DNA of 26,547 nucleotides from a virus, in IMG/VR virus record IMGVR_UViG_3300045959_000068, positions 1-26,547 of that record. The stretch is one strand, 5' to 3'. The notes beneath the pieces were generated by a model. It had not been told where the DNA came from and did no database searches. It saw only the letters and a program-made list of their open reading frames with translations. Position 1 is the stretch's first letter, and each line of letters begins with the position of its first letter. The translations under genes and the position numbers were made by a program. Positions 4,695 to 26,547 of this stretch are shown here, piece after piece.

Positions 4695-5718
4695 CGAGGC
4701 CCTTGTGTTTTTGCGTAGCGCTGCGCCGCGAAGTGCGGTCGTGCTTCCCGCGCCGACGGCGATGGACGCCGCGCCGTTGTACGCGGTTGAGGGGCGAACG
4801 GCGATCATCGGTGTTGAAGGTATTTTGACCCCCGAGCCGGATCGGTGGATGGCGTACGTCTACGGCGCTAATACTGGGTACTCGACGATCGTGGCGGCGG
4901 TACGTGCGGCCAATGCGGACCCCAAGATCATAAATATACGGCTTGAATTTGGGAGAGTCCCCGGCGGCGACGTTATGGGACTTTTCGGCGCGATGGATGC
5001 GATCGCCGATTCGGAAAAACCTGTCGAGGCGTTTGTTCGATACCAGGCGACCAGCGCCGGGTATGGGCTCGCAAGCCAGGCGGGGAAGATCATCGCGGCG
5101 GATCGTGGCGTTGTGCTCGGTTCGGTGGGCGTCGCAGTGGATGCGTTTGTCGATGAACATTTGGTTTCGGTATCGTCGACCGAGGCGCCGGACAAACGCC
5201 CGGATCTTTCCACGGAGGAAGGGCGCGCGGTTGTGCGCAAGGAGCTTGACGAGATCCACGATCTTTTTGTGGCGGGCATTGCCCGCGGCCGCGGTACGAC
5301 CGTGGAAAAAGTGAATGCGGACTTTGGGCGCGGCGGTTTGATTATGGCCGAGAGCGCTCTGAAAATAAACATGATCGACAAGGTCGAATCCCGGCGGGCG
5401 TCGGGAACGAAAAAAGCCGGAGGTAAAAAAGTGGAAGACGAAAAGACTTTCGAGGATGGCGTGCAAGCTGAGCGCGCGAGAGTGGCGAGCCATTTGGCGC
5501 TTGCGGTGGTGTCGGGCGCCTTTGACGTGGCGCTTGAAGCGATCAAGTCGGGATCGCCGATTACCGCGGAGATCTCGACGCGGCATATCGAGGCGGGTGT
5601 TAAGTCTCGCGCGCAAGCTGCGCGAGTTGCGGACGCCACGCCGGTCGCGTCCACAGTGGATGCTGAGGACAGTTTCGAAATGTGCTGCCTTAAGGCGTAT
5701 GAAAGCGGGGTGCGGTAA
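4675..5718 (+). CDS. Prohead protease, S49 family (gpC-like) with C-terminal scaffold domain
   Basis: 347-aa protein in the position of lambda gene C. Residues about 40-240 form an S49 (SppA/ClpP-fold) peptidase: a VPGGD loop at 95-99, a nucleophile candidate Ser127 in QATSAGYGLASQ, and a general-base candidate Lys174 in the APDKRPD segment followed by the helix DLFVAGIARGRG. Residues 243-252 are a Lys/Gly linker, and the last 95 residues are helical and probably the scaffold. It would digest the scaffold and itself during capsid maturation. ATG 4675 has GAGGAAGGA upstream and overlaps the portal gene by 20 bases. The end overlaps the decoration gene in a TAATG junction. Confidence 0.88.
   Translation: MPWLLSDEALVFLRSAAPRSAVVLPAPTAMDAAPLYAVEGRTAIIGVEGILTPEPDRWMAYVYGANTGYSTIVAAVRAANADPKIINIRLEFGRVPGGDVMGLFGAMDAIADSEKPVEAFVRYQATSAGYGLASQAGKIIAADRGVVLGSVGVAVDAFVDEHLVSVSSTEAPDKRPDLSTEEGRAVVRKELDEIHDLFVAGIARGRGTTVEKVNADFGRGGLIMAESALKINMIDKVESRRASGTKKAGGKKVEDEKTFEDGVQAERARVASHLALAVVSGAFDVALEAIKSGSPITAEISTRHIEAGVKSRAQAARVADATPVASTVDAEDSFEMCCLKAYESGVR
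5431..5718 (+). CDS. Nested capsid scaffold, Nu3-like, same frame as the protease
   Basis: A GTG at 5431 lies in the same frame as the protease gene (codon 253). It is preceded by GGAGGT at 5419-5424 with 6 bases of spacing, an excellent ribosome binding site. Initiation here would give a 95-aa protein identical to the protease C-terminus, predicted to be mostly helical with an acidic/Lys start. Lambda Nu3 arises the same way inside gene C and is the scaffold for procapsid assembly. The Lys/Gly linker of the protease is itself encoded by the ribosome binding site region, which suggests the site is maintained. Expression is inferred from the start signal and the lambda precedent. Confidence 0.7.
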   Translation: MEDEKTFEDGVQAERARVASHLALAVVSGAFDVALEAIKSGSPITAEISTRHIEAGVKSRAQAARVADATPVASTVDAEDSFEMCCLKAYESGVR

Positions 5719-6419
5719 TGTCGATGACCGTGACAAATATTGATCAAGGCCGTTGTCTGGTCGAAGCGGAGGCCACGCGCAACGTGGTTCTAGCTTTTGC
5801 GGGCGCGGATGTTCTGGCCGAAGGGACACTAATCGCCAGGCGCGAAGCGGTAACGGCGATTACGCCCGCTGCCGACGAGGGCAACACGGGCGATGGAACT
5901 TGCACGCTCGCCTCGGTTGTGGCGGGTGGCAAGCCGAAGATCGGGACGTACGTTTTGACGTGCATCGCTGAAGTGGCCCACGGCGGCATCTTCAAGCTGG
6001 TGGATCCCGATGGCGGCTTGGTCGCTGGTTATCTCCCGATGACCGCCGGCGCGGGCGTCGCCACGGCTTTCGAGGTCGGCGGGTTGGCGTTCACGTTGAC
6101 CGACGGCGACGAGGATTTCGACATCGGCGATATTTTCACCCTCCCCGTCGTGGCCGATGGAAAATGTGTGCCGTTCGCGATTGATGGCGTCGGCAGCATC
6201 GCCACGCCGATCGGCGTGTTGAGTTATCCTGTCACGGCGACCGGATCCGGCAACATCGCCGCGCAGATTGTCGCCGCCGGAACTTTCCGCAAAGAGCGGA
6301 TGATCATCGACGCCGACGGAGATGACACCAATTTGTCCGAATCGATCATCGATGGGCTTTATGCCCGCGGGATCAAGGTCGTCAACACCAAAGACATCAG
6401 TGTCTTGGATAACCAATAA
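5718..6419 (+). CDS. Head decoration protein, lambda gpD family, with an inserted domain
   Basis: Outer capsid cement protein in the lambda gene order. The N-terminal part (residues 1-50, GRCLVEAEATRNVVLAFAGA) and C-terminal part (about 150-233, ending KGIKVVNTKD-like) fit the gpD fold. At 233 aa it is about twice the length of lambda gpD (110 aa). The extra mass is a beta-rich block, residues about 52-145, beginning EGNTGDGTCTLASVVAGGK and rich in Gly, Asp and Thr. Such Gly/Thr blocks are known in other long D-type proteins and probably project from the capsid surface. The ATG overlaps the protease stop (TAATG). Confidence 0.8.
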   Translation: MSMTVTNIDQGRCLVEAEATRNVVLAFAGADVLAEGTLIARREAVTAITPAADEGNTGDGTCTLASVVAGGKPKIGTYVLTCIAEVAHGGIFKLVDPDGGLVAGYLPMTAGAGVATAFEVGGLAFTLTDGDEDFDIGDIFTLPVVADGKCVPFAIDGVGSIATPIGVLSYPVTATGSGNIAAQIVAAGTFRKERMIIDADGDDTNLSESIIDGLYARGIKVVNTKDISVLDNQ

Positions 6420-7522: not shown

Positions 7523-7779
7523 TGGGACGGTACCGTAAAGGCGCTGCGGCGCCAGTTGTCAAAGCGCCCGACGTTGCGGGGGCACCGGATGTCAAAGCGC
7601 CCGACGTTGCGGCGCCTGTTGTCGAGGCACCCGAGCCGGCGCGGTATTTCGTCGCGCCTGGGAAGGCGATCACCTGCAAGCGTGGGGTTCTTGGACCTGG
7701 CGCGGAGGTGTTCCCCGAGACCGACGGGATCGGGAGATTCTTTGAATTTCTCGAAAATGGGTACTTGGTGGCGAAATGA
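7522..7779 (+). CDS. Small Ala/Pro-repeat protein in the head-completion region
   Basis: An 85-aa protein of unknown function. Residues about 7-38 are a low-complexity tether rich in Ala, Pro, Val and Lys in which KAPDVA is repeated. The C-terminal half (ARYFVAPGKAITCKRGVLGP and onward) looks like a compact beta fold in which a small module carries a Gly-rich turn and an ENGYLV end; similar small modules occur in head-completion regions of many phages. ATG 7522 overlaps the capsid stop (TAATG) and is preferred to upstream in-frame GTGs inside the capsid gene. Its end overlaps the next gene in an ATGA junction. A capsid-associated role (lambda FI slot) is inferred from position only. Confidence 0.7.
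   Translation: MGRYRKGAAAPVVKAPDVAGAPDVKAPDVAAPVVEAPEPARYFVAPGKAITCKRGVLGPGAEVFPETDGIGRFFEFLENGYLVAK
7558..7612 (+). repeat. Tandem imperfect repeat encoding VKAPDVA units
   Basis: A 22-base unit beginning GTCAAAGCGCCCGACG occurs identically at 7558-7579 and 7591-7612, 33 bases apart. It encodes the repeated Ala/Pro tether of the small head-region protein. Because 33 is a multiple of 3, gain or loss of a unit would keep the frame and change tether length. Confidence 0.85.
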
Positions 7780-8153
7780 GTTTGCGAGAGAAAGCCGAAG
7801 CGGTGCTGTTGGCCGCGATTGAAAATTCGGACTTGTTCGGGCAGGCGGTAACAGTGATCAACCCGAGTGGGACGACGCTTGACACTGTTGGGCTTTGCAA
7901 CGACATTGCGCAGTCGATCGATCCCCAAACCGGGGTCGTTATTAGCGGGCGTCAAGTATCGGTGGCGCTTCGGCTTTCCTCTCTTTCTGTTTTTTCTACT
8001 CTACCCATTGCGGTGCCTGAGTCGGCCGGGCGCCCTTGGCTTGTGCGGTTCGCGGACATCCTGGGCGCCGAGCGTACTTTTAAGGTGCGCGAGACGTACC
8101 CGGATCGGACTCTTGGCGTACTCGTTTTGATCCTAGAGGCTTACAATGCTTGA
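7776..8153 (+). CDS. Head-tail joining protein, FII-like
   Basis: A 125-aa protein directly after the capsid block and before the tail genes, as lambda gpFII. FII-type proteins sit between connector and tail and complete the neck. The sequence has an N-terminal helix (REKAEAVLLAAIENSDLFGQ), a beta-rich middle and a typical closing stretch (RPWLVRFADILGAERTFKV then RTLGVLVLILEAY). The ATG overlaps the previous stop (ATGA). Codons about 67-80 are strikingly pyrimidine-rich compared with their neighbours. The family assignment rests on pattern and position. Confidence 0.6.
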   Translation: MSLREKAEAVLLAAIENSDLFGQAVTVINPSGTTLDTVGLCNDIAQSIDPQTGVVISGRQVSVALRLSSLSVFSTLPIAVPESAGRPWLVRFADILGAERTFKVRETYPDRTLGVLVLILEAYNA

Positions 8154-8805
8154 GCTGATTGACAAGCTTGACGAGTGCGAAACCATACGGGACAAGGTCG
8201 CGGCGATCCTGGCTGCGGAAATCGCCGGCCAGAAGGCGCAGGCGATTGACGCGGACAAAGATCCTGCTCTTTGGGACCTGCGCATCTACACCGAGCGATC
8301 GACGGCTTGGGAGATGTTTTTGCACGACACCGACGCCGGGCCGCCAGTTGTCAATATTTGGATCGACGGCATGGATTTTACCGGCCGCGGGTCGGATGTT
8401 GTCGGAAGGCAGAAAACCGAGACGGCGATCAATATTGACGTTTTTGCATCGATGCCGAGTACCGAAGCGGGCGCCGGGCATTTGCCGGGCGACGAGGCTT
8501 CGGCGCGGGCGGTGCAACGCGCTTGTCGCTTGATCCGGAATATTTTGATGGCGGACACATACACCTATCTCGGTTTGCGCGGGCAAGTCTGGAAAAGGTG
8601 GATTGAGTCTACAAAATATTTCCAGCCCACTTTCCAGGGCGTAACGGTCCAGCATGTTGTGGGCGCACGGATCACGCTGCAAGTTACACACAACGAGCTT
8701 TCGCCGCAATTCACCGGCGAAATAATGGAAGCAATTGACGCGCAGGTTTTGCGCAAGGCTGACGGCGCTTTGTACGCTGCGGCTACTTTCGAATACGAGG
8801 AATAA
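8146..8805 (+). CDS. Putative tail terminator / tail completion protein
   Basis: A 219-aa protein between the head-tail joiner and the sheath, the slot of tail-end capping proteins in Mu-like phages. The layout is like that group: an N-terminal helix with Asp/Glu pairs, a beta core (TAINIDVFASMPS), a helix (SARAVQRACRLIRNILMA) after a GDEAS turn, then TYLGLRGQVWKR and a C-terminal strand region (ARITLQVTHNELSPQ). Such proteins cap the head-proximal end of the tail tube. The start ATG overlaps the previous gene by 8 bases. No single residue is diagnostic, so the role is an inference from order and shape. Confidence 0.5.
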   Translation: MLELIDKLDECETIRDKVAAILAAEIAGQKAQAIDADKDPALWDLRIYTERSTAWEMFLHDTDAGPPVVNIWIDGMDFTGRGSDVVGRQKTETAINIDVFASMPSTEAGAGHLPGDEASARAVQRACRLIRNILMADTYTYLGLRGQVWKRWIESTKYFQPTFQGVTVQHVVGARITLQVTHNELSPQFTGEIMEAIDAQVLRKADGALYAAATFEYEE

Positions 8806-22200: not shown

Positions 22201-22577
22201 CCGACACCACCGGGAACGGAATCACGGCGCGGGTAACCGTGACGACCAACACGGTCGGGATCGGCGGGGCGCTTACTGTCGATAGCTCCTTCCAATGGGT
22301 GGACGCGGACAACACCGATCCGAGCACGGCGCCGTGCCTGGCGATAGCGTTGGAGGCTGGTACGGGCGCCGGTAAAAAGGTTCTGCTGCTCGGGACCGGC
22401 GTGATCCGAAAGGACGCTTGGGACTGGTCGAGAGGGTATGTATACGTCGGCACCTCGGGAGGGCTCACGCAGACCGCGCCTTCTGGTTCGGGTGATCAGG
22501 TTCAGCCCGTGGGATACGCACTATCGGCGGACACGATATTGATAGGCGGCGGGCTCGCAGCGCTGGTAGAGGTGTAA
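19206..22577 (+). CDS. Large tail fibre protein with two tandem carbohydrate-binding-like modules
   Basis: 1123-aa host-recognition fibre, with GAGGTGA before the ATG. Residues 1-125 look like a virion-attachment head with the LEYPDAASREAG and DDNSLWMLVGYDPIAW pieces found in many phage fibres. Two jelly-roll-like modules start at residues about 130 and 263; both open with DGDCEAADMSAWT and close with an YIDD strand (RYIDDISVV, AYIDDVTIV), the layout of CBM4/9-type sugar-binding domains. Residues about 400-730 are a beta-rich shaft including HNELSGLQGGVAGSYYHSD, and the last 100 residues form a compact beta-rich tip (GVIRKDAWDWSRGYVYVG). Sugar binding is an inference from shape; no enzyme motif was seen. 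Confidence 0.8.
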   Translation: MTVPPDVFHRESVVGDRHAPHNLEYPDAASREAGINEGRGFELAAGLLYQFARQTDDNSLWMLVGYDPIAWVPVGGAGDTTLDDAYSNGETGDHLVDVDDGPVIWRLADGENFRVDAGGDGEGVPVSVIEDGDCEAADMSAWTLVGSPAKSSAYAHGGSQAIEFYSGTSEVAQGGLVVGLEYRVRFWALRDGMGSFVVYNGSGGSEVFLGELIMGDLYTWYEFDKIFTATSDTIRIVGTGFGLRYIDDISVVGTGGGTPATLNDGDCEAADMSAWTASGGPSKSTDYAHGGTRSIRFGASPAEVSQSCITPGTEYRLRFWGLKNGTHTGFSVYDGSSETGTLLGTLSQASADVWYEFDHTFTAATDTVTIAAGSLDGAAYIDDVTIVNTGGSAAGYFQLTSSGTALGLSALLSSVGIVASGNVVIESTGGNVDIGIMHGEGAGYQYAREIYNATQSAGVISGGGITDNLDGTVDIEEIEVIFKTTDSETGANETHTIPAQTDVEFTDHAKNFILLDYNGGSPSVSVSTSDTSNGHDVIELACVFREGTNLDIFRCGLTVSDLANRLAYLHELEDGLHFVTGGHVSDAGTRYIEITAGIMIKGLVEIVSNAFDSTGEAFEYYYEYPPSTWVETSAQQLNNAQYNDPAAGLVAHTANRYGTHWVYKGTNGNTYVLYGRGDYLLAQAQAAQPPATLPPHVESFGVLRAKVITQQGAAEIVEIQAVDDVQFTYSTPSVHNELSGLQGGVAGSYYHSDQAINAASSPTFAGLTVSGLIYANGNITKAPGSVLSIYGGNSYVRIGDTAVTSHLLDSENDLLIGGELEVDGATYLDGSLTISGLITSSNSMYMGGNQRVYAGAGLSFYPYISTQTVGSGYIGTDANNLLLFGRQANVGGNYGFSAPANPTFYILSASAATTATDQWGRWYHDQSDFRIGAGKGATLVDGPAAGCGIGFPSMTTANRTSYSPSRAGVLVWDSDLSDLQRWDGTYWDGLMRVNTAPVADTTGNGITARVTVTTNTVGIGGALTVDSSFQWVDADNTDPSTAPCLAIALEAGTGAGKKVLLLGTGVIRKDAWDWSRGYVYVGTSGGLTQTAPSGSGDQVQPVGYALSADTILIGGGLAALVEV
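19602..20026 (+). repeat. Duplicated module start in the tail fibre gene
   Basis: A 26-base block starting GATTGCGAGGCCGCCG is identical at 19602-19627 and 20001-20026, exactly 399 bases (133 codons) apart. It marks the start of the two tandem binding modules. Outside the block the two modules have clearly diverged in DNA and protein, so the shared block is either conserved by selection or refreshed by recombination. The second half of the first module (about 19740-19960) is visibly more AT-rich than the second. Confidence 0.85.
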
Positions 22578-23360: not shown

Positions 23361-23663
23361 ATGGCAACCAAGAAAAACATTGATACAAAATTCGGCTTTT
23401 CGCTGGAAGGCTACGGGCGGATCGTGTCCGTCCAATTCAACCGCCGCGAGAAGTGCGCCCACGTATACCGCGAGTGGTACCCGGACAAAGCCGCGAGCGA
23501 CGCCGGGGCGCCGCCCCTGGAAGTCGAGGACTTCTTTTTCTGGGGCGAGGCGTGGCCGGGCTTCGCCGCCGCCCTGGGCGAAAAGGATCTGGTCAAACAG
23601 TGTTACCTGCTGATCGCCGCGCGGGAGATAGCCGAGGAAAAAGATCCTGGGATTGAGATTTAA
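23361..23663 (+). CDS. Small hypothetical protein after the fibre genes
   Basis: A 100-aa soluble protein, not recognised. It has an N-terminal beta-like part (GRIVSVQFNRREKCAHVYREW), an aromatic-rich acidic segment (EVEDFFFWGEAWPGFAAAL) and a C-terminal helix. GGAG sits 9 bases before the ATG, which is 3 bases past the previous stop. Position suggests a virion-related or fibre-assembly accessory, but this is only a guess from the neighbourhood. Confidence 0.6.
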   Translation: MATKKNIDTKFGFSLEGYGRIVSVQFNRREKCAHVYREWYPDKAASDAGAPPLEVEDFFFWGEAWPGFAAALGEKDLVKQCYLLIAAREIAEEKDPGIEI

Positions 23664-23709
23664 TTTGTGGTATCGTCCAAATGCGGACAGAAAAAGGAGT
23701 ATGCAGAAA

Positions 23710-23955
23710 ATGGAAAAGAAAGAAAACGTCCGAGAGCTGCCAAAGAAACCAAAAGAAAACGTGACGGCGCACCCGATCCCGGCGAATGTGCTGCAAGCGA
23801 TCCAACAAATCGACGCGGCGCAAAACATGTTGCGCTTGCAAATGGATCTACAAGTGGAACGCGCGTTGCGCCTGTGCGGCGTTACGGATCCCGATCTCCG
23901 GGTGCGTATCGAAGGCGGGTCGCTGATCGTGACGAAAGTGGAGGCCGAGAAATGA
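23710..23955 (+). CDS. Small Lys/Glu-rich hypothetical protein
   Basis: An 81-aa protein with a Lys/Glu-rich head and a helical middle (VLQAIQQIDAAQNMLRLQMD), followed by a beta-like end (RVRIEGGSLIVTKVE). AAAGGAG at 23693-23699 lies about 10 bases before ATG 23710; an in-frame ATG at 23701 is too close to the same site. The gene ends in an ATGA overlap with the lipoprotein gene. No membrane segment is visible. Function unknown. Confidence 0.6.
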   Translation: MEKKENVRELPKKPKENVTAHPIPANVLQAIQQIDAAQNMLRLQMDLQVERALRLCGVTDPDLRVRIEGGSLIVTKVEAEK

Positions 23956-24176
23956 AAGCAACAATCGCAATCGTTTTTGCGCTGGCCCTTGGCGGCTGCG
24001 CGTTTTGGAAACCCGCGGTAAAATCAACCATGGCTGTCGCGCGCGTGCTGTGCGAGGAGTACGGCACCGGGCGCGATCTAGGGATGAGCGTCGAGGATTG
24101 GTGTGCCATCGAAGGCAACCTTCGGCCGTTCGTCGAGGCCGTAACCGGATTGGATGCCGCCGGTGTGGCCAAGTAA
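23952..24176 (+). CDS. Small lipoprotein
   Basis: A 74-aa precursor with a lipobox: a short signal (KATIAIVFALALGG) and Cys16 as lipid-attachment residue (LGGC). The mature 59-residue part has only two further cysteines (34 and 51) and a charged helical region EEYGTGRDLGMSVEDW. After processing it would sit in the inner or outer membrane of a Gram-negative cell. It is coupled to the gene before (ATGA) and overlaps the peptidase gene by 23 bases. An outer-membrane spanin or a receptor-blocking exclusion lipoprotein are possible; it lacks the Pro-rich stretch of Rz1 spanins. Confidence 0.68.
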   Translation: MKATIAIVFALALGGCAFWKPAVKSTMAVARVLCEEYGTGRDLGMSVEDWCAIEGNLRPFVEAVTGLDAAGVAK

Positions 24177-24906
24177 ACACGGCACGGGATACACTCCCGA
24201 CGAGCGCGATCCGCGGGATTTCCCTTTCGCCAAGCTTATGCTTGGGGGACTTTCCACAAAATACAGCAATTCTCTTTTACGGCATATCGAAACGGTACGT
24301 AATCAAAGATCAACAGAATCGTGCGTTCTACAGGCGGCGAGCGCGGCCCACGAAATACGGGCGCGCCGCCGTGGTGGTCGGTACGCGCCGATCTCCGTGT
24401 TGTATTGCTGGTTCAATGCTCGCGCGGCCGTCGGCGCGCAATTGCGCAACGTGGGATGCTCGCCCAGGATCGCAATGCGGCTGATCCAAAAACTTGGCGG
24501 GAGCCTAGAAAGCGCGTGGTCCTTTTCGACAGACCCCATAAAATTCAGACGCCGCCCACCGTGGAACGCCTACGCGGTAGGGTTCGAGGCGCGCGATCTG
24601 CGGTACTATCGGATCGACGATGGCGACCGGGATCGGCAAGTGCGCACGTCAATCGACGCCGGGATCCCCGTAATGGTCGGATTAGAGATCGGCAAGGAGT
24701 TTAAAGCGCACAACGGATGCGATCCGCTCGGGCCGCCGACCGACACAATCGGGCGGCACATGGTTTTGGTCACAGGTTACGAGGGGGACAATTTTCAGAT
24801 CTTGAATTCTTGGGGCAAAGGTTGGGGGCGCGCCGGCGTGGGCATTATCTCGCGGCGGTATTTGGAGGAGGCGGGAACCCGTGATCTGTATGCGTTCCAT
24901 TATTAA
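24154..24906 (+). CDS. Papain-fold (C1A-like) cysteine peptidase
   Basis: 250-aa protein with all active-site residues of the papain family in order: Gln51 and Cys57 in NQRSTESCVLQAASA, His202 in IGRHMVLVTGYEG and Asn218 in ILNSWGKGWG. The N-terminus has the GYTPDERDPRDF motif seen in short, prodomain-less C1 peptidases. There is no signal peptide, so it acts in the cytoplasm, in the virion, or leaves the cell upon lysis. It overlaps lipoprotein genes on both sides. Whether it trims virion proteins, attacks host proteins or helps in lysis cannot be told. ATG 24154 is the first start; a GTG at 24163 is also possible. Confidence 0.88.
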   Translation: MPPVWPSKHGTGYTPDERDPRDFPFAKLMLGGLSTKYSNSLLRHIETVRNQRSTESCVLQAASAAHEIRARRRGGRYAPISVLYCWFNARAAVGAQLRNVGCSPRIAMRLIQKLGGSLESAWSFSTDPIKFRRRPPWNAYAVGFEARDLRYYRIDDGDRDRQVRTSIDAGIPVMVGLEIGKEFKAHNGCDPLGPPTDTIGRHMVLVTGYEGDNFQILNSWGKGWGRAGVGIISRRYLEEAGTRDLYAFHY

Positions 24907-25141
24907 AATTGCGCTGCCCCTTGTGGTTATTGGCTGCGGCGCGCCCGTGCTGCCAATCGACACGCCCGAAACGTGCGCGGCGGCGTGCGATAATTTGCAG
25001 CAACTTAGGTGCCCTGGGTGGCGGGAGGAGTGCCCGGAAATGTGCGTGACGTTCGGCCGCGAGCCGGGCGTGTCCTTTCATTCCGAATGTGTCGCGAATG
25101 CGGGAAATTGCCAGGCGGCGGACGCCTGCCTAAAATACTAG
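24890..25141 (+). CDS. Small cysteine-rich lipoprotein
   Basis: An 83-aa precursor with Arg2 and Lys6, a hydrophobic core (IALPLVVIG) and lipobox Cys16. The mature part has eight more cysteines (29, 33, 41, 48, 52, 67, 74, 80), enough for four disulphides, consistent with a compact periplasmic or outer-membrane domain. A GTG at 24881 in frame is an alternative start lying about 11 bases after GGAGG; ATG 24890 gives the better signal peptide. It overlaps the peptidase gene. Possible roles are a spanin-like lysis factor or superinfection exclusion, neither proven. Confidence 0.7.
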   Translation: MRSIIKIALPLVVIGCGAPVLPIDTPETCAAACDNLQQLRCPGWREECPEMCVTFGREPGVSFHSECVANAGNCQAADACLKY

Positions 25142-25152
25142 TGGAGGTGGCT

Positions 25153-25413
25153 TTGGCAGATGAACACAAGGATTTGTGGGAGCAAACCAATATCAACCGG
25201 GTCGAGATCGCCGGGCTGAAAGCCGTCGTCACGTCGATCCCCGATCAGCTCGAAAAATTAGCGGCGGCCGTGCAAGAAATAAAAATTTATTGCGCGCAAT
25301 GCCGCACCGCGCCGGCAGTGGCAACGGCTGGCAGCGCCCAGTTGATCAAGCTGTTATTGGGCGCGGTCGTGGTACTCACCGGCGCGCTTGGCGTGCTGTT
25401 GGGTATCCAATAG
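25153..25413 (+). CDS. One-helix membrane protein, XhlA/holin-like
   Basis: 86-aa protein: a soluble N-terminus with coiled-coil character (WEQTNINRVEIAGLKAVV, QLEKLAAAVQEIKI), a CAQC pair at residues 47-50, and one C-terminal membrane helix (LIKLLLGAVVVLTGALGVLL). This is the layout of XhlA-type holin partners. GGAGG at 25143-25147 lies 5 bases before the TTG at 25153, which decides the start; the frame is open further upstream. It lies between the Cys-rich lipoprotein and the second fibre, so a lysis role is plausible. No endolysin with a classical muralytic motif was found in the window. Confidence 0.6.
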   Translation: MADEHKDLWEQTNINRVEIAGLKAVVTSIPDQLEKLAAAVQEIKIYCAQCRTAPAVATAGSAQLIKLLLGAVVVLTGALGVLLGIQ

Positions 25414-25429: not shown

Positions 25430-26272
25430 ATGTCTTTCCTTTGGACAAGTCTTTTTTTCGGTCGCGCCGAGGCCGCATCTACCAATTACCCGCACGGCGC
25501 CCCGCGCGACCGCACCCCAGGCAATTCGGACGGAACGCCGATCACAAATACTTGGTTGCGCCATCTTGCTGGGTTTGAGCAGCGGGCGTTGACCCGCGCG
25601 GGTATTACGCCGAACGGGAATCTCGACACGGCGTTGACCTCCCAACTTTTTGAGGCGCTTCAAAAAAGCATTCACCCGCCCGGGACGTTGTGTTTTCACT
25701 CGTGGGCCAGTATCCCCGCCGGGTACCGTCTTTTGAACCTGGAAGGGCAGGGGATTGACCGCACGGCCGCGGACTATGTCGACCTCGACGCGGCTTGTTA
25801 CGTGGGCGACACGTACAACGACAATGCGACGGCGTTTTACCGCGCCGACGATGCCGGCGGCGTGACACGCAACACCGTTGGGCAGTATTTAATTTTACCG
25901 GACGCGCGCGGCTGTTTTGTCCGCGGCGTCGACCTCCCCAAGGATGTCGACAAAGACCGCCAGCACGCATATCAACGGTTGCCCGGCAACGTGCAAGGGT
26001 GGGCGATGCGATCACACGGGCACGTTGTATCGCACGGCGTAGACTCTAACGACGCGGCTTTCGAGCCGGTGCCGATCCGCACTCCCGACGGCGAAGGAGA
26101 ATACATTTATCCGGCGCTTAAGGTGTCGCCGGAACCGGATCCAATTGACGCTGTGGCCACTGGAAGTACGCTATACACCAGCCTGGGAGATAGCGGGGAT
26201 TTCCCAACACATCAATCTAATTACGAGAGCCGCCCGATCAACGTGGCCGCCTACGTCGCGATCTGGTACTAG
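25430..26272 (+). CDS. Tail fibre protein with collar-type C-terminal domain
   Basis: 280-aa second fibre-like protein. The C-terminal half has the collar signature YLILPDARGCFVRGVD (residues 153-168), MRSHGHVVSH (193-202) and the ending SRPINVAAYVAIWY. The His-rich loop could bind metal, as in short tail fibres. The N-terminal half (ASTNYPHGAPRDRTPGN and onward) may attach it to the baseplate or to the long fibre. AGGAGGT precedes the ATG by about 8 bases. It is separated from the first fibre by the peptidase/lipoprotein cassette. Its stop overlaps the convergent polymerase gene by 4 bases. Confidence 0.78.
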   Translation: MSFLWTSLFFGRAEAASTNYPHGAPRDRTPGNSDGTPITNTWLRHLAGFEQRALTRAGITPNGNLDTALTSQLFEALQKSIHPPGTLCFHSWASIPAGYRLLNLEGQGIDRTAADYVDLDAACYVGDTYNDNATAFYRADDAGGVTRNTVGQYLILPDARGCFVRGVDLPKDVDKDRQHAYQRLPGNVQGWAMRSHGHVVSHGVDSNDAAFEPVPIRTPDGEGEYIYPALKVSPEPDPIDAVATGSTLYTSLGDSGDFPTHQSNYESRPINVAAYVAIWY

Positions 26273-26547
26273 TCCTTTTTGTAGCAATCCCCGATCCAAC
26301 CATCGGCGCGCAACGGGTATTCTCGCGCCCAGCCTGGAAGATCAAGCATGATCCGCGAGACGTCGGCGACAGTGACGGACCCGCGCGGGGCTTCGATCAA
26401 TACTTCGTCGTGGACGTGCAAAACAACGCGGAGGCCGGCGGCGTCGAGGTTGTTCACGGCGTGCGCCAGAATATCGCGCGCGGCCGCTTGGGCGATATTC
26501 TCGACGAGTTTCCCGCCGTAGGTATCGCCGCGCCGCCAACGCTTTTG
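26269..26547 (-). CDS. DNA polymerase I, family A (C-terminal fragment, cut by window edge)
   Basis: 92 codons of the 3' end are visible; the 5' part lies beyond the window. The fragment shows GGKLVENIAQAAARDIL, the helix region of family A polymerases, and motif C (VVLHVHDEVLIEAP) with the VHDE catalytic carboxylate. It ends at a TAG complementary to 26269-26271. This indicates phage-encoded replication in an opposing block. It is not a feature of Mu-type transposing phages. Its coding extends to the window end without a stop, so length and exonuclease domain are unknown. Confidence 0.9.
   Translation of the reverse strand, partial: QKRWRRGDTYGGKLVENIAQAAARDILAHAVNNLDAAGLRVVLHVHDEVLIEAPRGSVTVADVSRIMLDLPGWAREYPLRADGWIGDCYKKD

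Follow-up and report, generated by a model that had tools for sequence, protein, structure and literature searches.

A papain-family peptidase paired with a cysteine-rich lipoprotein in the putative lysis slot of a tailed phage

The window analysed here spans the 26,547 bases of an IMG/VR record. Since the record is classed as linear, the window is probably a fragment, and an endolysin may therefore sit in the missing part. Its main genes make up a myophage late operon. They specify a head of lambda-like type (gpA-type terminase, portal, S49 protease, HDPD-like decoration protein and capsid protein E) and a contractile tail like that of Mu (sheath, tape measure, hub, baseplate J and gp48). Fibre genes lie at the end of this operon, and a family-A DNA polymerase gene converges on it at 26,269. 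Four genes in this region, here called A to D, and their surroundings are as follows.

23653..23955, plus strand: 100-aa ORF upstream of A, with a TTG start and an ATG at 23701
23952..24176, plus strand: gene A, 74-aa lipoprotein with lipobox LGGC, Ala at +2 and the motif DWCAI..NL.PF
24154..24906, plus strand: gene B, xylellain-type C1A (papain-family) cysteine peptidase of 250 aa (Pfam PF00112, E 4.3e-5)
24881..25141, plus strand: gene C, proline-rich and cysteine-rich lipoprotein of 86 or 83 aa, starting at GTG 24881 or ATG 24890; matches to its profile lie beside the peptidase
25153..25413, plus strand: gene D, 86 aa, helical in its N-terminal part and with a single transmembrane segment at the C-terminus (residues 67-85)
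25430..26272, plus strand: tail fibre gene at the end of the late operon, next to the cassette but outside the unit (PHROG 26525, E 2e-15)
26269..26547, minus strand: C-terminal end of the convergent family-A DNA polymerase gene (PHROG 7766, E 9e-34)

The initial annotation described four tightly overlapping genes between two fibre genes. All four exist, and the overlaps are 23 bases between A and B and 26 or 17 bases between B and C, depending on the start of C (GTG or ATG, respectively); C and D do not overlap but have 11 bases between them. The best start of D is the TTG at 25153, five bases past a GGAGG (judged by eye). The position between fibre genes holds loosely, as the large upstream fibre ends at 22577 and is followed by an adhesin-like ORF and two 100-aa ORFs. 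The stop of the second of these, at 23955, overlaps the start of A (ATGA) and the downstream fibre gene begins 16 bases past D, so the A-D run is part of a longer operon. This 100-aa ORF, for which no relative was found, possibly belongs to the same operon as A, outside the conserved core. The identification of A as a lipoprotein, of B as an intact C1A-like peptidase without signal peptide and of C as a lipoprotein with eight extra cysteines (eight Cys in addition to that of its lipobox, VIGC) was borne out. Protein D had been called XhlA-like; its layout is indeed similar, but it had no Pfam match at E<=1.

Among named phages, the window phage is closest to Shewanella phage SppYZU01 and Acinetobacter phage Scuro (terminase identity 51-58%). 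Between its fibre and convergent DNA polymerase genes, SppYZU01 carries a GH108 endolysin with a peptidoglycan-binding domain, a holin-like protein and a Phage_holin_3_1 holin, and the neighbourhood of the Scuro fibre contains a GH19-like endolysin and a membrane protein. The DNA polymerase gene, which is common to SppYZU01 and other relatives, marks the 3' border of this slot. Relatives were collected more widely by their baseplate J protein, giving 80 viral contigs, and 89 slot proteins from 27 of them were scanned. The families found were GH108 (eight times), Amidase_3, Amidase_2 and M15_4 (twice each), and M15_3, CHAP, NlpC/P60 and DUF5675 (once each), together with three Phage_holin_3_1 and one GTA_holin_3TM holins and one Rz1-like LysC. 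The position is thus a lysis slot in which one lytic enzyme is often exchanged for another.

The window phage has put A-B-C-D into the lysis slot of its lineage. SppYZU01, Scuro and the window belong to one lineage and have their cassettes in the same place after the baseplate and fibre genes, with the DNA polymerase border present in SppYZU01. The cassettes of the two named phages differ in having GH108 or GH19-like endolysins and multi-span holins, and in lacking both a C1A peptidase and a Cys-rich lipoprotein. No C1A peptidase was found in any of the 80 baseplate-J relatives within the stretch examined. As the initial annotation had noted, no classical endolysin is seen: known peptidoglycan-hydrolase domains were not detected in the main window proteins examined, B matched only Peptidase_C1, and no muralytic Pfam or PHROG family was found in the other proteins searched.

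D had no homologue in Pfam (E<=1), PHROG, tblastn or clade-locus searches; it did not match a holin family profile, and its only PHROG matches were weak and of other kinds. It is nevertheless holin-like in being small with one transmembrane segment, and only from its size, this segment and its position is it plausibly a holin.

B scores above the Pfam Peptidase_C1 cut-off, and its Cys57, His202 and Asn218, together with Gln51, are invariant in alignments of 23 and 25 sequences. Its closest solved protein, both by sequence (phmmer E 4e-11) and by fold, is xylellain from Xylella fastidiosa (PDB 3ois), which is the best PDB match to the AlphaFold model of B (pLDDT 88.4; TM 0.80, E 3e-16). B also shares with xylellain-type short bacterial C1A peptidases the catalytic residues and a short N-terminal extension with a G-Y-x-P-D-x-R-D-x-R-D motif. 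The sequence thus identifies B as a C1A peptidase with intact catalytic residues and predicted proteolytic activity. It has no signal peptide, transmembrane segment or wall-binding domain. Unlike the xylellain type, B is in its clade always linked to a C lipoprotein, and it sits in a phage lysis slot. It lies on a long branch, with about 30% identity to any relative, and a single-sequence scan of viral_contigs with B returned no match. Myoviridae and Siphoviridae are reported to have acquired xylellain-type peptidases (PMC10380794), and an enzyme of the B type is therefore not new to phages.

A scan with a peptidase alignment yielded 80 phage C1A loci, and a second scan was run with clade members, followed by a search with a C profile. 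A C homologue adjoins the peptidase in the top 12 loci and in L275 (the contig of phage L089, see below), which together represent 11 distinct viral contigs, two of them short. None was present in the 64 other phage C1A loci of the second scan. None was present in 80 bacterial C1A loci either, and a bacterial origin of the B-C pair was rejected on this ground. In the peptidase tree, a branch with support 96/95 sets all 12 C-linked peptidases (11 contigs and the window) apart from the rest. Window B pairs weakly with that of L089 (85/44); because the window branch is long its exact placement is unsure, but the C gene is an independent character on which its grouping with the clade is based. B and C distances, taken pairwise, are correlated (Mantel r 0.54, p 0.001, 12 pairs). 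Chance pairing was considered and rejected from the C-profile distribution, the clade tree and the Mantel test. These sequence comparisons indicate that B and C are co-inherited.

The order of the two genes varies. C is upstream of B in most clade phages. In the window and L089 it lies downstream and overlaps B; in L266 a homing endonuclease gene separates the two, and in L265 they are on opposite strands. Linkage has thus been maintained despite rearrangement. Searches by tblastn with A, C and D against phage records gave no matches, and scans with A and C alignments returned only loci that were already known. GIY-YIG-type homing-endonuclease-like genes were seen by eye between or beside B and C in L088 (3032-3871), L113 (2863-3882) and L266 (5986-6702).

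The 12 aligned C sequences have in common a lipobox, a proline-rich stretch and six mostly conserved Cys after the lipid Cys. Two extra Cys are present in C of the window, L089, L265 and L266, and both are missing in the other 8 of the 12. This joint gain or loss is the pattern expected of a disulfide, which implies an oxidising compartment. Absence of Asp at +2 after the lipid Cys directs lipoproteins to the outer membrane by the E. coli rule, which may not be that of the host. C is probably a disulfide-rich outer-membrane lipoprotein. Its structural model, of middling quality (pLDDT 70), consists of four short helices. A fold search with this model found no solved relative, and in BFVD it matched one phage protein named 'Lipoprotein' (prob 1.00, E 0.013). 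Near the B-C pair of L267, at 7600-8487, lies a lipoprotein-like ORF composed largely of a DTDTGPDTGPGP repeat.

Gene A has a single homologue, in the unrelated phage L089 (IMGVR_UViG_3300024518_005412), where it likewise lies directly before the peptidase. L089, one of the 80 loci of the first scan, has A (phmmer E 1.8e-5 in its ORFs), B and C (E 5.8e-5) in the order A-B-C, and it has no detectable structural protein in common with the window. The repetition of this order in an independent phage argues for more than chance. Directly downstream of A-B-C, L089 encodes a 270-aa Amidase_2 protein with a peptidoglycan-binding domain, and a 164-aa protein that combines a transmembrane segment with a probable coiled coil. 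The initial annotation had taken independent occurrence of the genes in relatives as grounds for refutation, and this holds by half: D, and mostly A, are independent of B and C, but B and C stay together. A-D as one fixed unit was rejected, as A recurs once and D never.

Lytic genes are also found next to the pair in other clade members. In L266 a GH24 lysozyme gene overlaps the start of B, in L264 an M15_4 enzyme with a peptidoglycan-binding domain abuts B, and in L262 a glucosaminidase gene is beside C. No recognisable lytic enzyme adjoins the pair in L088/L256, L107/L257, L113/L258 and L164/L259. As a peptidoglycan hydrolase adjoins B in some clade members, B is not the sole endolysin there. 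Distances between C1A and hydrolase genes, examined in 50 records for five lytic families, were shorter than under random placement in the clade (combined p 0.014), in other C1A phages (0.0045) and in both together (4.5e-4), a statistic that is support and not proof, since the five families were partly picked after the clade had been seen and the contigs are fragmentary. Neighbours of phage C1A genes in general were mixed, with few lytic enzymes among 117 proteins, and a lysis association is thus not claimable for all phage C1A peptidases from neighbours alone. Downstream of B, two large phages encode a related protein of 240-290 aa (L088 4641-5519 and L113 6607-7338) that belongs to no Pfam family and carries the motif AGHKKD...AIYGWH..DG..IQGP.

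Independent support for C1A domains taking part in lysis comes from Alicyclobacillus phage MMB025 (PV686781; L006 7878-10139), in which a protein deposited as endolysin fuses C1A, Ig-like, Rv2525c glycoside-hydrolase-like and peptidoglycan-binding domains. It has in common with B the xylellain-type C1A domain and the lysis context, but it is a single 753-aa fusion from a phage of a Gram-positive host and has no lipoprotein partner.

Among the three suggestions of the initial annotation, an unusual lysis unit is the one best supported, by slot content, the L089 amidase and the clade neighbours, although the four genes are not one fixed unit. We give an even chance to the reading that A-D are the lysis-slot genes of the window phage and form a lysis-associated envelope module, with B as a protease and C as its dedicated partner. 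B would be made late and stay in the cytoplasm until D, acting as holin, opens the inner membrane and lets it reach the periplasm. There it could cut envelope proteins or the peptide cross-links of the wall and so help the cell to burst. C, a lipoprotein comprising a proline-rich tether and a disulfide-stapled helical head, would be sorted to the outer membrane, where it might contact B as anchor or activator, or act as a periplasmic inhibitor. A may belong to this envelope module as another lipoprotein, less conserved than C. Our data suggest that the B-C pair helps to open the host cell envelope, and C most likely partners B directly; whether as anchor/activator or as inhibitor is a choice that sequence alone does not separate.

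An auxiliary protease is favoured over a sole endolysin for B by the standard hydrolases beside the pair in clade members. It is doubtful that B is the endolysin itself, a C1A fold turned murein peptidase that stands in for the GH108, amidase or M15 enzymes of relatives, while D acts as holin and lipoprotein A or C disrupts the outer membrane. B does lie where relatives have exchangeable lytic enzymes, in a window with no other hydrolase domain found; it lacks a signal peptide, as canonical endolysins do, and the MMB025 protein joins a C1A domain to peptidoglycan-binding and glycoside-hydrolase-like domains. However, four clade members have a peptidoglycan hydrolase of a known family directly beside the pair, B is missing a wall-binding domain, and xylellain, its nearest solved relative, is described as a cysteine protease. 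Proteins are the usual substrates of C1A enzymes, and we know of none acting as a peptidoglycan hydrolase.

Similarly doubtful is a specific form of the envelope-module reading, in which outer-membrane C captures or activates B once the inner membrane has been breached, and B then severs the proteins linking the outer membrane to the wall, proteolysis taking the place of membrane fusion by spanins. C has in common with spanins (Rz/Rz1) that it is a small proline-rich, probably outer-membrane lipoprotein near lysis genes; unlike them it has a conserved disulfide-rich head. Neither A nor C, both small lipoproteins without Asp at +2, matched a spanin family in Pfam or PHROG. No inner-membrane spanin partner with an N-terminal transmembrane segment was found in the window, and D is unlike such a partner in that its sole transmembrane segment is C-terminal. 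No proteolytic route through the outer membrane was met in the literature searched.

C could instead be a periplasmic immunity protein that inhibits B, guarding against damage before lysis or against B from neighbouring cells. Strict pairing, correlated divergence and the disulfide-rich, exported nature of C would fit this role, and Tae4/Tai4, papain-like amidase effectors with periplasmic immunity proteins (PMC3695027), offer a comparison in logic, not homology. Nonetheless, B has no signal peptide and C would thus meet it only once the inner membrane opens, and the C model, itself of middling quality, matched no known inhibitor fold; we regard such a function as unlikely.

Quite unlikely, in our view, is that B is a virion-associated or released protease directed against host surface proteins, S-layer or appendages, with the lipoproteins as unrelated exclusion genes. 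Fibre-like genes lie on both sides of the set, and tail-fibre-like genes follow B in L107. But C tracks B across very different phages, a lipoprotein is not a virion component, and the position is the lysis slot in the nearest relatives. The earlier proposal of a protease-based attack may still apply, whether on competitors or, by the virion, on a surface. Superinfection exclusion, the remaining suggestion, finds nothing in its favour beyond lipoprotein-like signal sequences, and a Cor-type function for A was rejected because the Cor PHROG match covers residues 1-20 only, the signal peptide, at E 0.28.

C1A peptidases in tailed phages and endolysin exchange in lysis slots are already known. 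The B-C enzyme-partner pair appears to be undescribed; no description was found in the open-access literature searched, which is weak evidence. The pair bears on the question of how phages that lack spanins breach the outer membrane. Conserved across phages of very different genome size, this two-gene module would be a directly testable candidate. If our reading is true, a function would follow for C1A peptidases annotated merely as 'peptidase' in tailed phages.

Two minor observations concern the head genes of the window. The 116-position lambda gpD model aligns with about 200 residues of the decoration protein (5718-6419, 233 aa), which therefore seems to carry a large insertion. In addition, a 5,858-base contig from another IMG/VR record (L002 1-5858) encodes a terminase 100% identical to that of the window and at an equal distance from the contig end; the two records are probably one phage seen twice, with a contig end in common.
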